Positions 40,599-45,940 of a stretch of DNA of 64,000 nt are shown piece after piece. Below the pieces are notes generated by a model. It worked only from the letters and a program-made list of their open reading frames with translations, was not told the origin of the DNA and did no database searches. A program made the translations under genes and the position numbers. The stretch's first letter is position 1, and every line of letters begins with the position of its first letter. The DNA is from Flavobacteriales bacterium (GTDB lineage Bacteria; Bacteroidota; Bacteroidia; CAIKAF01), in contig JAKRSD010000027.1 of assembly GCA_022402535.1 (NCBI GenBank), positions 1-64,000 on the forward strand. Reading direction: 5' to 3'.

Positions 40599-41611
40599 TG
40601 AAGTGGGGGTTCACGGTTATCTTATCGGGAATTTTACTTTCCGCCCCGGCGCAAAAAGTCATCTATTCCGATTGGGGAATTCCGCAGGCAGGAAAACCCC
40701 GGTTTGCTTTTGTCCACATTACGGATATTCACATCGGGGAAGCCGCTGCCGAAGGAGATTACGGAACACCCGGCTGGCTTGATGCACCGCCTGACATAAC
40801 ACAGGAAGGTTATTCGGCCCAACGCCTGCGCAAATCGGTGGAATGGATAAACCGGCATGCCGCCGAGCATAATATTCAATGGGTTATGGTTACCGGCGAT
40901 TTAACCGACAGCGGAGAACTCTCGGAGTTTTTGAAATGCCGCGAAATATTGGATCTGCTCACGATTCCGTACGTTCCGGTGATTGGCAACCATGATGTAT
41001 GGCCTTATACCCGAAATTCGGAATCGGTCCATCCCTGCGGAGATTCGTTGTTGAATAAGGTGTTTGCCGACCAATTTTTTAAACTAAGCCGCACGTTTGA
41101 AAATTGGCATGACGGAACCCGACTTATCCGAACCTATAATCCCGAACGGAATCAGTACAATTATCTGCAGAATTATTCCTTTTCAGAAGGGGATGCGCAG
41201 TTCATCGTTACGGATTTCGGCACCCGAAAACATGCGGGAAAGGGCGAACCCGGCGTGGGACCCAGAGCCGATTTACATGATTTTGAAGGAGGTACTTTGC
41301 CCTGGCTTCAGCAGCAATTGGCGCAACTGCCCGCAAACATAAAACAGGTGTATATTTTTTCGCACTGGCCCATGATGAAAGAGCCCATCAATTTTCATTT
41401 TGCCTTCAGTTATGCGAAGTACAAACGCATTGCCCACGTGTTGTATCCGCACAGAAATAAATTAGCCTATTGGCTTTCAGGGCATATTCATCGCAGACAT
41501 GTGCAGTCTATAACCCTGCCCGGCCAAAGCGAAGAAATCATGGTCTGTGTGGAAACTTCGGCCAATAAAAAACACGAGGAAGGTTATTTTCGCATTATCC
41601 GGGTGTGGTAA
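40595..41611 (+). CDS. Exported calcineurin-like metallophosphoesterase
   Basis: 338 residues. Start at the ATG overlapping the rarA stop (ATGA); ATG at 40598 is an alternative. The signal peptide ends SAPAQ near 20. Di-metal motifs in order: HITDIHIG, VTGDLTDSG, VIGNHDVWP, FSHWPMM and SGHIHRR. It probably hydrolyses a phosphodiester in the periplasm or at the surface; the substrate is unknown. Its last 17 bp overlap the end of aroE on the other strand. Confidence 0.88.
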   Translation: MMKWGFTVILSGILLSAPAQKVIYSDWGIPQAGKPRFAFVHITDIHIGEAAAEGDYGTPGWLDAPPDITQEGYSAQRLRKSVEWINRHAAEHNIQWVMVTGDLTDSGELSEFLKCREILDLLTIPYVPVIGNHDVWPYTRNSESVHPCGDSLLNKVFADQFFKLSRTFENWHDGTRLIRTYNPERNQYNYLQNYSFSEGDAQFIVTDFGTRKHAGKGEPGVGPRADLHDFEGGTLPWLQQQLAQLPANIKQVYIFSHWPMMKEPINFHFAFSYAKYKRIAHVLYPHRNKLAYWLSGHIHRRHVQSITLPGQSEEIMVCVETSANKKHEEGYFRIIRVW

Positions 41612-42347
41612 CTGGTTCCGGATTCCAAAGTTTCCAGGAGGCTTCGGCCTGTATCCGCAGCATTTTTTCACCGTTGAGCGTAGTGGCTTCCCGCTCCATT
41701 CCTTCGTGCAAAAAGCCGGTCATGGGCGGGTTGTAGATTAAATCGAACAGCACATGCATATCTGAAATTCCCTCGTAGGGTATCTGCGGTTTTTGTTCAA
41801 TATGGGGAAACATGCCCACAGGAGTACAGTTGATAATCAGTTTATTACGGCGGATGATTTCTTCTGTTAGTTCATCATACGACAGGGTATTTTCTGCTTT
41901 TTCTCTGGAAACAAATTGCACTTCCATCCCGGTTTTTTGTAGAAAATAAGCCACCGTTTTGGCGCTTCCTCCCGAACCTAAAATGAGTGCGGAAGTCATG
42001 TACCATTCCAGATGAGGTTTGAGGGTTTCGGAAATGCCGTAAATATCCGTGTTGTACCCGGTGGTTTTTCCGTTTTGAATCACTAAGCAGTTAACCGAAC
42101 CGATTTCCTTCGCCACGGGATGCACTTCATCCAAAAAAGGTATGACGGATTCTTTGTAGGGAATGGTAACATTCAACCCGCATAAACCGGGATGTTCAGC
42201 AATGAGTTGGTGAAACTCTTCTATCGATTGCAGTTCGAAATTTTGATACTTGGTATTGGCAATATGTTCCCGTTCAAATTTTCGGGTAAAATAATCCTTG
42301 GAAAAGGAATGGGATAACGGTTTTCCTATGAGGCCGAAAAGGCGCAT
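41595..42347 (-). CDS. aroE: Shikimate dehydrogenase
   Basis: 250-residue NADPH-dependent enzyme of aromatic amino-acid synthesis, reducing 3-dehydroshikimate. Substrate site GKPLSHSFS at the N-terminus, catalytic Lys in NVTIPYKE, Asp in GYNTDIYG, dinucleotide-binding LGSGGSAKTV, and NCTPVGMFP with the late YNPPMT motif. The ATG overlaps the DUF368 stop by one base, so it is in an operon with DUF368 and probably the genes before it. Confidence 0.95.
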   Translation of the reverse strand: MRLFGLIGKPLSHSFSKDYFTRKFEREHIANTKYQNFELQSIEEFHQLIAEHPGLCGLNVTIPYKESVIPFLDEVHPVAKEIGSVNCLVIQNGKTTGYNTDIYGISETLKPHLEWYMTSALILGSGGSAKTVAYFLQKTGMEVQFVSREKAENTLSYDELTEEIIRRNKLIINCTPVGMFPHIEQKPQIPYEGISDMHVLFDLIYNPPMTGFLHEGMEREATTLNGEKMLRIQAEASWKLWNPEPVTTPG

Positions 42348-43285
42348 CAGGCTTTGGTGTTGAGTTTTTGCGAAATGCGCTCAATGCCAAAAACGAGGGT
42401 AAAACCGAGCAGTGCCAGTCCGATGGATAGCAGAATCTGCGGATCCTGTTGTAATATTTCTTCGTAAGCCGCGGGGCTGATGCTTTCTTCTAAAAAGGGA
42501 ACTTCTTCGCCTTTGGAATTTATACGGGTTTCCAATACTTTTTTCCAGGGCCATACTTTATTCAGCGAGCCGATCATAAACCCGGTGAGTAAAGCCAGTG
42601 TAGCTTGATGAAAACGTTTGAACATGAAAGAAACCACCCGGGCAAAGCTCAACAAACCCACCAGACAGCCCGCTCCGAAAAAGAAGATGACTTCAAAATC
42701 CATGGATTTAAGTGAATCCATGATAAATTGGTATTTTCCCATGAGCAACAGAATAAAACTGCCCGAAATACCGGGGAGAATCATGGCGCAGATGGCAATG
42801 GCTCCGCTGAAAAAGATAACGGGATTACTGTTAGCGGTTTCAGAGGGAGCGGCAATGGTGATGATGTAAGCGATTACAGTTCCGATAAGAAACAATACCA
42901 CACTCTGCACATCCATTTTTTTCATGCTTTTGGCCACAAATACGGTAGAAGCCAAAATCAGCCCGAAAAAGAAAGACCAAACGGGAATGGGGTAATTTTT
43001 TAACAGGCCCGTAATTACGCCGGCCAACGTAACGACCGATGTGCCGATTCCTGCCAATAACACCCCCATGAAAAAAATGTTGGCTTTCTCAAAAGCGGCT
43101 TTAAATTTTCCGGTGAAAAACAATTTTAACGCTTCGGGCACGGAGCGTATGCTGTTGATGAGTTCTTCGTATATACCGGTGATAAAAGCAATGGTTCCGC
43201 CACTTACGCCCGGAACCACATCGGCTGCTCCCATGCCCATTCCTTTCAGATAAAGGAATACATAGTCTTTAATGCTTCGTTTCAA
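42347..43285 (-). CDS. DUF368 membrane protein
   Basis: 312 residues with about eight to nine transmembrane helices. The N-terminal hallmark GMGMGAADVVPGVSGGTIAF and the second repeat ICAMILPGISGSFILL are the paired P-G-x-S-G motifs of DUF368. Family members have been implicated in undecaprenyl-phosphate (C55-P) recycling across the membrane; that would fit a cell-wall role but is knowledge of the family, not visible here. Two bases separate it from the rhodanese gene. Confidence 0.92.
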   Translation of the reverse strand: MKRSIKDYVFLYLKGMGMGAADVVPGVSGGTIAFITGIYEELINSIRSVPEALKLFFTGKFKAAFEKANIFFMGVLLAGIGTSVVTLAGVITGLLKNYPIPVWSFFFGLILASTVFVAKSMKKMDVQSVVLFLIGTVIAYIITIAAPSETANSNPVIFFSGAIAICAMILPGISGSFILLLMGKYQFIMDSLKSMDFEVIFFFGAGCLVGLLSFARVVSFMFKRFHQATLALLTGFMIGSLNKVWPWKKVLETRINSKGEEVPFLEESISPAAYEEILQQDPQILLSIGLALLGFTLVFGIERISQKLNTKA

Positions 43286-43287
43286 AA

Positions 43288-43605
43288 TTATAATACCTGA
43301 ATTTGAGGATTAATTTCTTCCTGCCAGGCCAAAAGGCCTCCGGATAGATTAATGAGATTGGAGTATCCCTTTTCGGCAGATAAATAGCGGATCATTTTCT
43401 CGGAACGGCCTCCTGCTTTGCAGTGTATCACCACTTTTTTATCCGAAGGAATTTCATCCAGCCTCGAAAGCACTTCGCCCATAGGGATATGTTTCCCGTT
43501 GATGTTTCCGGTTTCAAATTCCAGTTTTTCCCGAATGTCAACCAGCAGGAAATCTTCGCCGGAATCCATCCAGTTTTTGAGTTCTTGAACTGTAATTTCG
43601 TTCAT
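43288..43605 (-). CDS. Rhodanese-like single-domain protein
   Basis: 105 residues, one rhodanese domain: LVDIREKLEFETGNI, catalytic Cys in HCKAGGRS, and GLLAWQ at the end. Cytoplasmic; carries sulfane sulfur as a persulfide or acts as a phosphatase-like Cys protein. It lies 25 bp after comA and just before DUF368 on one likely mRNA. Proximity to a sulfonate-forming enzyme may be meaningful but is not proof. Confidence 0.92.
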   Translation of the reverse strand: MNEITVQELKNWMDSGEDFLLVDIREKLEFETGNINGKHIPMGEVLSRLDEIPSDKKVVIHCKAGGRSEKMIRYLSAEKGYSNLINLSGGLLAWQEEINPQIQVL

Positions 43606-43630: not shown

Positions 43631-44467
43631 CTATCCGTTTTCTTCGTCGTCGTTGTATTCGTCTTCGGTTCCGTCTTCATTGAGCTGCACATATTTTTCG
43701 CGCAATTCCTGCGGAAGATGAAGGAAGAATGTATCGCCCCGCATACCCAGGCGCAGCGTTTCCAATGAAATTACCTCATCGGGGGCAATATTTCCCAGGT
43801 TTACATCTGAGCCTAACAGTTTGATAAAATAGGCCTGTTGCGCTTTATTCGGCGCTTCCCATAAGATGCTGTCTTTGGGGATTTTGTTCAGGATTTTATT
43901 AATTAAGGCTACGTGCGGTTTTCCTCCGGGACGATAAATACCAACGGTTCCGCTTTCGCGGGCTTCGGCAATCACTTTCCAGGCTCCGGCTTCCAGCTCG
44001 GTTTCCATCATCTGTTTCCAACGGTTGGGCGCGATGAAAATGCCCGCTTCCTTGGAACCTACCTCCGAAAATACTTTAAAATCTTTGGAAAGGTCTTTGA
44101 TGAGCTTCAGTTTTTCTTCGGGTTTCAGGCGTATGGAACCGTCAGAAATTTCAGCCGTGCTCAGTTTTAATTTTTTGAGCAGTTTGATGTAATCGCGAAA
44201 CATATCGCGCACCAGAAAGGCTTCAAAAAAAGTACCGCCCAGATAGGGCTGAATATTGGCCGATTTGTAAAGTTCAATTTTTTCTTCGAGTCGGTTGGTT
44301 ACGTAGGATGTACCAAAGCCCAACTTTACAAAATCGATACAATGTCCCGAAGATTCGATGAGGTCTTCTGCCTGACGCAGACTGAGACCTTTATCCATAA
44401 CCATGGTTACGCCGGCATTCCGGGGTTTGGTTCCTCTGTCGGGAACATAGGGGAGTTTTATTTTCAT
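43631..44467 (-). CDS. comA: Phosphosulfolactate synthase (ComA family)
   Basis: 278 residues. ComA adds sulfite to phosphoenolpyruvate to give (R)-phospho-3-sulfolactate, the first step of one coenzyme M pathway. A TIM-barrel enzyme with the motifs GVTMVMDKG near the N-terminus, DFVKLGFGTS, YLGGTFFEA, EISDGSIRL, FSEVGSKE, ILWEAPNKAQQ and LGNIAPDEVISLE. The acidic C-terminal tail (EDEYNDDEENG) is an add-on. No ComB, ComC or sulfopyruvate genes are next to it. In Bacteroidota, which make sulfonolipids and other sulfonates, it may feed a different sulfonate; that is inference. Confidence 0.88.
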   Translation of the reverse strand: MKIKLPYVPDRGTKPRNAGVTMVMDKGLSLRQAEDLIESSGHCIDFVKLGFGTSYVTNRLEEKIELYKSANIQPYLGGTFFEAFLVRDMFRDYIKLLKKLKLSTAEISDGSIRLKPEEKLKLIKDLSKDFKVFSEVGSKEAGIFIAPNRWKQMMETELEAGAWKVIAEARESGTVGIYRPGGKPHVALINKILNKIPKDSILWEAPNKAQQAYFIKLLGSDVNLGNIAPDEVISLETLRLGMRGDTFFLHLPQELREKYVQLNEDGTEDEYNDDEENG

Positions 44468-44530: not shown

Positions 44531-45940
44531 TTAGAAATTGTAAAGACGCAAAACGGCAGGATGGTTCGAAAGTTCAGGAAAGAGTTTAATAAAGTCTTCC
44601 AAAAAATGGGGGTGTTTTTGGTAGGCTTCCTGTAGGGTTTCGCCTCCAAATACAGTGTCGCCCGCCAATAACTGGTAGGCCCCCCAACGGTAGAGCATTT
44701 CTGCATCATCCGGATTGTGCTTTACTCCTTCATAAATCACTTCGATGGCCTTTTCTGTATTTCCATTCAGAAAAAGGGTTTCGGCATAATTTGCCCAAAA
44801 ATCTTTCCAGGGAAGGTCGAACGAATGAAGGAACTCATAGACTTCAATGGCATCGTGGTAAATGCCTAAGTCTTTTTTGATATCCCCGTAATATAGAATG
44901 GCTTCCAGATTGGTGTCGTCATGTTTGAATGCAGTTTCCAGATAGGGAAGGGCTTCGGAGCTACGGCCCATCTGATCCAGTACAACCCCGATGCCCATAA
45001 ACGCATCGGAATAATCCGGTTCTTTGGCAATAGCCTGTTTGTAATAGTGAATGGCACTGTCGAATTCGCGCATATGCTCGAAACATTCGCCCAATGCAAA
45101 GTACAATCCCGCCGAAGGTTCCTCGCGGTTTAATACTTCTTTGTATACCTCGGCAGCTTCCTCATACCGCTCAAGCTCCATCAGGGTTTCTCCTTTGTGC
45201 AGATACCCTTCTATGTAATTTTCATTGGCCGTGATACTGAAATCAAAGGCTTCAATGGCTTTTTCGTATTGTTTGAGTTCCACCAGTAAAATGCCCAGAT
45301 AAGCCCAGGCCAGGTGGTTGTATGGATCTGAATTAATGAGCGATTCGAGGAATTGAGCCGTTTTTTCTTTTTCTTCCAGCGAACAAACCTGACAACAAAA
45401 TAGCAGCTCCAGATAAGCCATATCATTGTAGTTGTTTACCCGGATAGCCTTCTTTAAACTTTTAATGGCTTCGCCAAAATGACCGTTGTTCTGATATTCG
45501 TTGGCAATGTCAATATACACATAATCATGCTCTTCGGGATCCAGATAATTCAGCGCTTCCAGATAACAATCTACGGCATTGCGGAATTCACCTTTGTCGG
45601 AATAGACTTCAGCTTTCAACAGAAAAATATCGGGATTGCCGGTTTCCACCGATTGAATTTCGTCTAAGAGGGCAATGGCTTCATCATATTTCTTTTTGCG
45701 GATGAGTACCTGCGATTTACGGATTCTTAACTCGGTAGAAAAAGGATGTTGGGCAAGACCCATATTAATCACTTTTTCGGCTTTGGATATTTTATTTTTA
45801 GAGAGGTAATGGTCGAAAAATTCTTCAAAACGGTCTGCATCAAAAAATGATACTTCGTTGTTTTTCAATAGCTTTTCAAAAGCTTCCAAGTCTTGTGAAA
45901 ATTGCTCCTCATTGCGTTCATACTCTTCGTTCATACTCAT
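44531..45940 (-). CDS. Tetratricopeptide-repeat protein
   Basis: 469 residues of almost continuous TPRs from about 45 to 440 (for example KKYDEAIALLDEI, GHFGEAIKSLKKAI, KQYEKAIEAFDFSI, REFDSAIHYYKQAI). There is no signal peptide, so it is a cytoplasmic scaffold. The acidic N-terminus precedes the repeats. It has its own TAGCTTTG promoter and is followed after 63 bp by comA, so it may head the run comA-rhodanese-DUF368-aroE. The partner is unknown. Confidence 0.88.
   Translation of the reverse strand: MSMNEEYERNEEQFSQDLEAFEKLLKNNEVSFFDADRFEEFFDHYLSKNKISKAEKVINMGLAQHPFSTELRIRKSQVLIRKKKYDEAIALLDEIQSVETGNPDIFLLKAEVYSDKGEFRNAVDCYLEALNYLDPEEHDYVYIDIANEYQNNGHFGEAIKSLKKAIRVNNYNDMAYLELLFCCQVCSLEEKEKTAQFLESLINSDPYNHLAWAYLGILLVELKQYEKAIEAFDFSITANENYIEGYLHKGETLMELERYEEAAEVYKEVLNREEPSAGLYFALGECFEHMREFDSAIHYYKQAIAKEPDYSDAFMGIGVVLDQMGRSSEALPYLETAFKHDDTNLEAILYYGDIKKDLGIYHDAIEVYEFLHSFDLPWKDFWANYAETLFLNGNTEKAIEVIYEGVKHNPDDAEMLYRWGAYQLLAGDTVFGGETLQEAYQKHPHFLEDFIKLFPELSNHPAVLRLYNF

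Follow-up and report, generated by a model that had tools for sequence, protein, structure and literature searches.

The closest described systems to the gene studied here are three. The ComA-ComB pair of coenzyme M biosynthesis in M. jannaschii (ComA structure 1qwg) belongs to the same two families as the pair described below, and its ComA is alike in fold and motifs; unlike that archaeon, our organism is bacterial and has no ComC-family match, and the product that we propose is cysteate for a lipid. B. subtilis also carries both families, and its ComA homologue (1u83) is the closest solved relative by sequence; sulfolactate is used as a store in the spores of this species. Unlike B. subtilis, the genome studied here also carries CFAT (cysteate-C-fatty acyltransferase). 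This enzyme, called CapB in the CapA-CapB-CapC capnine pathway of Capnocytophaga and Ornithobacterium, is common to both systems, whereas CapA would be replaced in our genome, by hypothesis, by ComA and ComB. Extracts of PMC10191378 name two cysteate sources, CapA and a relative of archaeal cysteate synthase, and cite PMC9304779 for the archaeal-type synthase in Alistipes; the main text of that paper contains neither "archaeal" nor "CapA". Links of sulfonolipids to gliding motility, to inflammation and to the development of choanoflagellates have been described, including in the same extracts of PMC10191378.

We analysed a window of 64,000 nucleotides (the whole stretch of contig JAKRSD010000027.1 presented above) together with the genome of the Flavobacteriales bacterium that carries it (G000; 32 contigs, 3.41 Mb). 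The comA gene occupies minus-strand positions 43631-44467, starts with ATG and encodes 278 amino acids; plus-strand frame 1 over the same positions is interrupted by stops. Its assignment to the phosphosulfolactate synthase family, made in the preliminary description from motifs, is borne out by a match to the full PF02679 model (E = 1.3e-87, 293.7 bits for a cut-off of 25.2, model positions 2-243 of 243), by the nearest solved structures in sequence (1u83, E = 9.7e-49, then 1qwg, E = 2.7e-42) and by the predicted fold (mean pLDDT 83.2), for which Foldseek ranks 1qwg first (E = 8.7e-23) and 1u83 second (E = 1.4e-21). In sequence alignments, the motifs DFVK, GGTxFE, EVGxK, RESG, EAPxKxQ and ETLRxGxRxDTF are common to this protein and both solved synthases, and invariant columns are present among 15 related ComAs. 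It is the single ComA match of the genome, and the nearest ComAs in named genomes are mostly those of Flavobacteriales, with other Bacteroidota. The protein remains under the cut-off of TIGR03849, the NCBIfam equivalog model of archaeal ComA (arch_ComA; 259.5 bits for 280), a shortfall that would weaken the label of archaeal ComA equivalog, not membership of the Pfam family. The same shortfall could favour a different role, that of an enzyme or scaffold that has the ComA fold and makes no phosphosulfolactate, like plant HSA32, a ComA homologue that is a heat-stress protein of unclear chemistry. However, the motifs common to both solved synthases and the presence of ComB in 173 of the 183 ComA genomes of the class make such a role very improbable. 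Judging from family and motifs, we are highly confident that ComA would make phosphosulfolactate from phosphoenolpyruvate (PEP) and sulfite. A second, divergent ComA was observed in another genome, G003 (L068:9350-10303, plus strand; 28% identity to the ComA of G000); it does not have the DKG and RESG motifs, yet passes the Pfam ComA model.

The neighbours previously named, a TPR protein, a rhodanese, DUF368 and aroE, were all found again with Pfam and NCBIfam models. They form with comA a run on the minus strand: the TPR protein immediately upstream (44531-45940, 469 aa), comA, a single-domain rhodanese 25 bases after it (43288-43605, 105 aa; PF00581), a member of the DUF368/polyprenyl-phosphate transporter family (42347-43285, 312 aa; NF052564, 413.2 bits for a cut-off of 400) and aroE, of the shikimate dehydrogenase family (41595-42347, 250 aa; PF08501; TIGR00507 171.4 bits, below the cut-off of 200.2). 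The successive gaps are 63, 25, 2 and -1 bases. We then compared 122 ComA loci, of which 117 yielded an anchor and a few may be one contig twice (e.g. L121 and L193, whose contigs are equal in length). A TPR homologue is immediately upstream of comA in 93 of the 117 loci and a rhodanese immediately downstream in 42, with AroE and DUF368 within six genes in 39 and 28 loci, respectively. The TPR gene is thus nearer to a constant partner of comA than the rhodanese. The adjacent rhodanese, formerly read as a hint of sulfur handling, gains little from this comparison, and we dropped it as a functional partner because of the low count of 42 loci. AroE was also dropped as a disguised sulfolactate dehydrogenase, as it keeps by eye the usual residues of what we take to be the shikimate-site motif.

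Among the families tallied over the 117 loci, no recurrent pathway gene was found around comA; in family f24, for example, the neighbourhood is a run of 4-alpha-glucanotransferase, ComA and a starch-synthase-domain protein. ComB is near comA in none of the 117 loci. Three loci have CFAT nearby; among them, L121 and L193 are apparently one contig, and L193 and L194 had been added to the set because CFAT lay close to ComA. An operon of comA with CFAT or ComB was not seen across these loci. Promoter-like sites numbered 10, for 9.7 in shuffled sequences. The second gene downstream of comA encodes a DedA-family protein (e.g. L194:557-1225, minus strand) in 19 of the 117 loci and DUF368 in 22 other loci; both families include polyprenyl-phosphate transporters.

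That no coenzyme M gene lies beside comA holds at the locus itself, but the genome has a comB at another place (contig C22, 40082-40747). This sole match to PF04029 (E = 5.2e-73) also matches the PDB structures 2yyv (E = 5.8e-41) and 1vr0, and it is under the NCBIfam equivalog cut-offs (TIGR00298, 136.6 bits for 175.05). A search of the genome for the ComC family (Ldh_2, PF02615) gave no match. In the phylum sample, Ldh_2 was detected in only 27 of 64 ComA genomes, which we counted against the lipid route. Whether Ldh_2 of ComA genomes acts as ComC is doubtful: the only protein examined (L160), not a clear ComC, has sulfolactate dehydrogenase as its best NCBIfam model, with 265.7 bits for a cut-off of 500, and a malate dehydrogenase as its nearest structure. 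The surroundings of ComB were examined in 16 loci (e.g. L032:8467-9546): gcvT (aminomethyltransferase) immediately precedes it in 13 of them and, counting those, is at most two genes upstream in 14.

The genome contains three matches to the BioF/Kbl-type model. L152 is a glycine C-acetyltransferase and L154 is BioF-like, beside an apparent bioB. The third, L153, scores 581 bits with PDB 28eh (cysteate-C-fatty acyltransferase), 572 with 7u7h and 227 with serine palmitoyltransferase. We take 7u7h, which the PDB names only "7-keto-8-aminopelargonate synthetase-like enzyme", to be the SulA protein from Alistipes finegoldii. Extracts of PMC9304779 give Lys281' as a residue specific to SulA, with which Lys280 of our protein aligns; in our tree, all 47 CFATs retain this lysine and the KBL outgroup does not. 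By these comparisons, L153 is a clear candidate for CFAT/CapB/SulA, the first sulfonolipid enzyme. Since the genome encodes a CFAT with the SulA lysine, the organism probably produces the first intermediate of sulfonolipid synthesis and hence needs cysteate.

We then looked for the known cysteate sources. Three PALP-fold proteins were found in the genome: L155 (455 aa, CBS-type), L156 (threonine-synthase type) and L157 (D-cysteine-desulfhydrase-family type). No protein exceeds the CapA cut-off; the best, L155, scores 451.8 bits for 600 with CapA and 486.2 bits with cystathionine beta-synthase (CBS; cut-off 510.25). In a tree of 16 rows, it falls on the CBS side, in a branch from which seven CapA candidates are split (support 98/96). 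Because CapA is a relative of CBS, L155 might conceivably make cysteate itself. For the archaeal-type cysteate synthase, the best TIGR03844 score in the genome is 23.7 bits for 324.9. L156 was rejected for this role with this score; it fits threonine synthase models best, without reaching the cut-offs of these. The search suggested in the preliminary description thus returned comB and CFAT, and neither the ComC family nor CapA nor an archaeal-type cysteate synthase over cut-off.

These results point to the following route. ComA would join sulfite and phosphoenolpyruvate into (R)-phosphosulfolactate, as its family and motifs suggest, and the unlinked ComB would dephosphorylate this product to sulfolactate, as expected from its family and from the co-occurrence described below. 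A dehydrogenase would then convert sulfolactate to sulfopyruvate, and a general aminotransferase sulfopyruvate to L-cysteate; the genes for these two steps were not found. In Methanosarcina, according to extracts of PMC12713407, an aspartate aminotransferase acts on the sulfopyruvate/cysteate pair. Finally, CFAT, recognized by sequence, would catalyse the first committed step of sulfonolipid synthesis, the condensation of cysteate with a fatty acyl group. In genomes with both ComA and CFAT, ComA and ComB would stand in for CapA, the phosphoserine-dependent cysteate synthase of another branch, and in the absence of CapA they probably start a route to cysteate from PEP and sulfite.

The distribution of these genes was studied in a class sample (217 genomes) and a phylum sample (247 genomes, 186 of them outside the class of our genome), with the CFAT of G000 as query at E <= 1e-90, a threshold that could miss more distant CFATs outside the class. 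In the class, ComA was detected in 183 genomes and ComB in 177: 173 genomes share both, 10 have ComA alone, 4 have ComB alone and 30 have neither. Eight of the ten genomes with ComA alone (all but 294 and 322) and two of the four with ComB alone (364 and 374) are less than 90% complete. ComA and ComB therefore travel together within the class. In the phylum sample, ComA is over cut-off in 64 genomes, all 64 of which have ComB, and ComB in 134. ComB is common without ComA outside the class (70 genomes, none with CFAT) and so probably has another use there. In ComA genomes, it is likely that ComB acts on phosphosulfolactate, the product of ComA.

CFAT was detected in 191 class genomes, 175 of them with ComA; 8 genomes have ComA without CFAT, 16 have CFAT without ComA and 18 have neither (Fisher test, P = 2e-11). 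For ComB and CFAT, the corresponding counts are 171 with both, 6 with ComB only, 20 with CFAT only and 20 with neither. A few of these CFAT matches are weak: G348 (1.3e-91), G361 (6.0e-98, in two pieces) and G319 (1.2e-118). In the phylum sample, 55 of the 89 CFAT genomes have ComA. Outside the class, all 31 CFAT genomes (out of 186) have it, and the 34 CFAT genomes without it all belong to three families of the class, f4, f5 and f6; CapA was tested in eight of these, seven being positive and one (G064) negative. CapA was called in 7 of the 217 class genomes, all with CFAT and without ComA; five of the calls are over the curated cut-off, and two are below it (546 and 508 bits), adjoining CFAT and grouping with the five. 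In the ComA genomes of the class, the highest CapA-model match is that of G250, with 489.3 bits; in a tree that included this protein and left out most other lower-scoring matches, it falls with CBS. The archaeal-type synthase was sought in 77 genomes (17 without ComA, 16 of them with CFAT, and 60 with ComA and CFAT) and was over cut-off in one, G369, which has CFAT and no ComA; none of the 60 was positive. The earlier proposal that the product of ComA could supply a sulfonolipid head group is thus supported, indirectly, by the presence of CFAT, by the missing CapA and archaeal-type synthase, and by the co-occurrence of ComA, ComB and CFAT. We lean slightly towards sulfonolipid as the main destination of the ComA product.

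Exceptions are found in both directions. Eight CFAT genomes of the class have neither ComA nor CapA nor the archaeal-type synthase (064, 291, 364, 374, 378, 381, 396 and 402); ComB is present in 364, 374 and 381, with 364 being 69% and 374 86% complete. Conversely, eight ComA genomes of the class have no CFAT at this threshold (272, 277, 292, 333, 370, 377, 379 and 416). Four of them (272, 333, 370 and 416), with a completeness of at least 99%, carry both ComA and ComB, as do the 9 of 40 ComA genomes outside the class that have no CFAT match at this threshold (003, 008, 050, 058, 147, 155, 195, 199 and 200). Such genomes are in keeping with another reading, in which ComA and ComB make sulfolactate as an end product (a solute, an exported metabolite or a store) and the cysteate of sulfonolipids comes from another enzyme; so are the absence of a ComC-family match in G000 and the matches of the B. 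subtilis control to both ComA and ComB searches. However, sulfolactate as an end product leaves unexplained why CFAT occurs outside the class only with ComA (31 of 31), and why neither the seven CapA genomes nor the single genome with an archaeal-type synthase has ComA. We regard it as rather unlikely. The complete scheme, from ComA and ComB through cysteate to a sulfonolipid made by CFAT, is by a small measure the explanation that we would favour.

The three genes could also co-occur by lineage history, all being ancestral and having disappeared jointly from some branches for unconnected reasons. ComA, ComB and CFAT are jointly absent from 17 of the 217 class genomes, in at least 7 families: f55 (7 genomes), f12 (4), f2, f66 (a 0.5-Mb genome), f80, f84 and f98 (one each), plus G420. 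In f2, genome G002 has none of ComA, ComB, CFAT and Ldh_2, and the five other sampled members have all four; it is a natural case of joint loss. Genome counts share ancestry, which inflates the statistics, and the association is smaller at the family level (66 families; Fisher P = 9e-4, or 4.7e-5 if f4, f5, f6 and f96 are counted as having a cysteate source), where any positive member counts, G420 is excluded and families were read from lists by hand. As a control, we used hits to the CapA/CBS model, present in 191 of the 217 genomes and almost exclusively CBS. This control is also linked to ComA (odds ratio of 6.6, P = 7e-5) and to CFAT (5.4, P = 0.001); part of the ComA-CFAT signal is therefore lineage. 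Nevertheless, the odds ratio between CFAT and ComA reaches 24.6 in the same genomes, CBS is kept in 9 of the 17 genomes of joint absence, and CFAT is retained in the seven CapA genomes from which ComA is gone. Shared history as the whole explanation is therefore improbable, even if the CFATs of CapA lineages, which form one clade, agree with it. This clade (ten rows, including seven CapA genomes; support 99/94) lies amid the CFATs of ComA lineages, so the swap to CapA would represent about one evolutionary event. With a root outside the class, ComA would look ancestral from this tree, whose root (KBL outgroup) is on a long branch. We tentatively propose, at somewhat under even confidence, that ComA and ComB are a third route to cysteate, and the ancestral and (in both samples) commonest source for sulfonolipids in Bacteroidota, replaced once by CapA, in the branch of f4, f5 and f6.

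ComA itself is ordinary in the class (183 of 217 genomes), and its role in sulfonolipid synthesis may be new. Our literature search, which did not cover key capnine papers that may mention the route, found nothing tying ComA or phosphosulfolactate synthase to sulfonolipids; in the extracts retrieved, matches to sulfolactate with sulfonolipid concern sulfoquinovose, and the match to cysteate, sulfopyruvate and Bacteroidetes is a gene table. If the proposed route is true, the characterised CapA route serves only part of the CFAT-bearing lineages, and in many others PEP and sulfite are the starting material of the sulfonate group, through enzymes that are classed with coenzyme M biosynthesis in methanogens. 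The route would also offer a reason for the abundance of ComA genes in Bacteroidota.

Finally, in two genomes outside the class (G179 and G219), CFAT is the C-terminal part of a protein of about 1,110 amino acids (L221:2972-6352, plus strand; L222:4571-7897, minus strand). These fused proteins also contain AMP-binding (acyl ligase) and phosphopantetheine carrier domains, as if the enzyme loaded its own acyl group.
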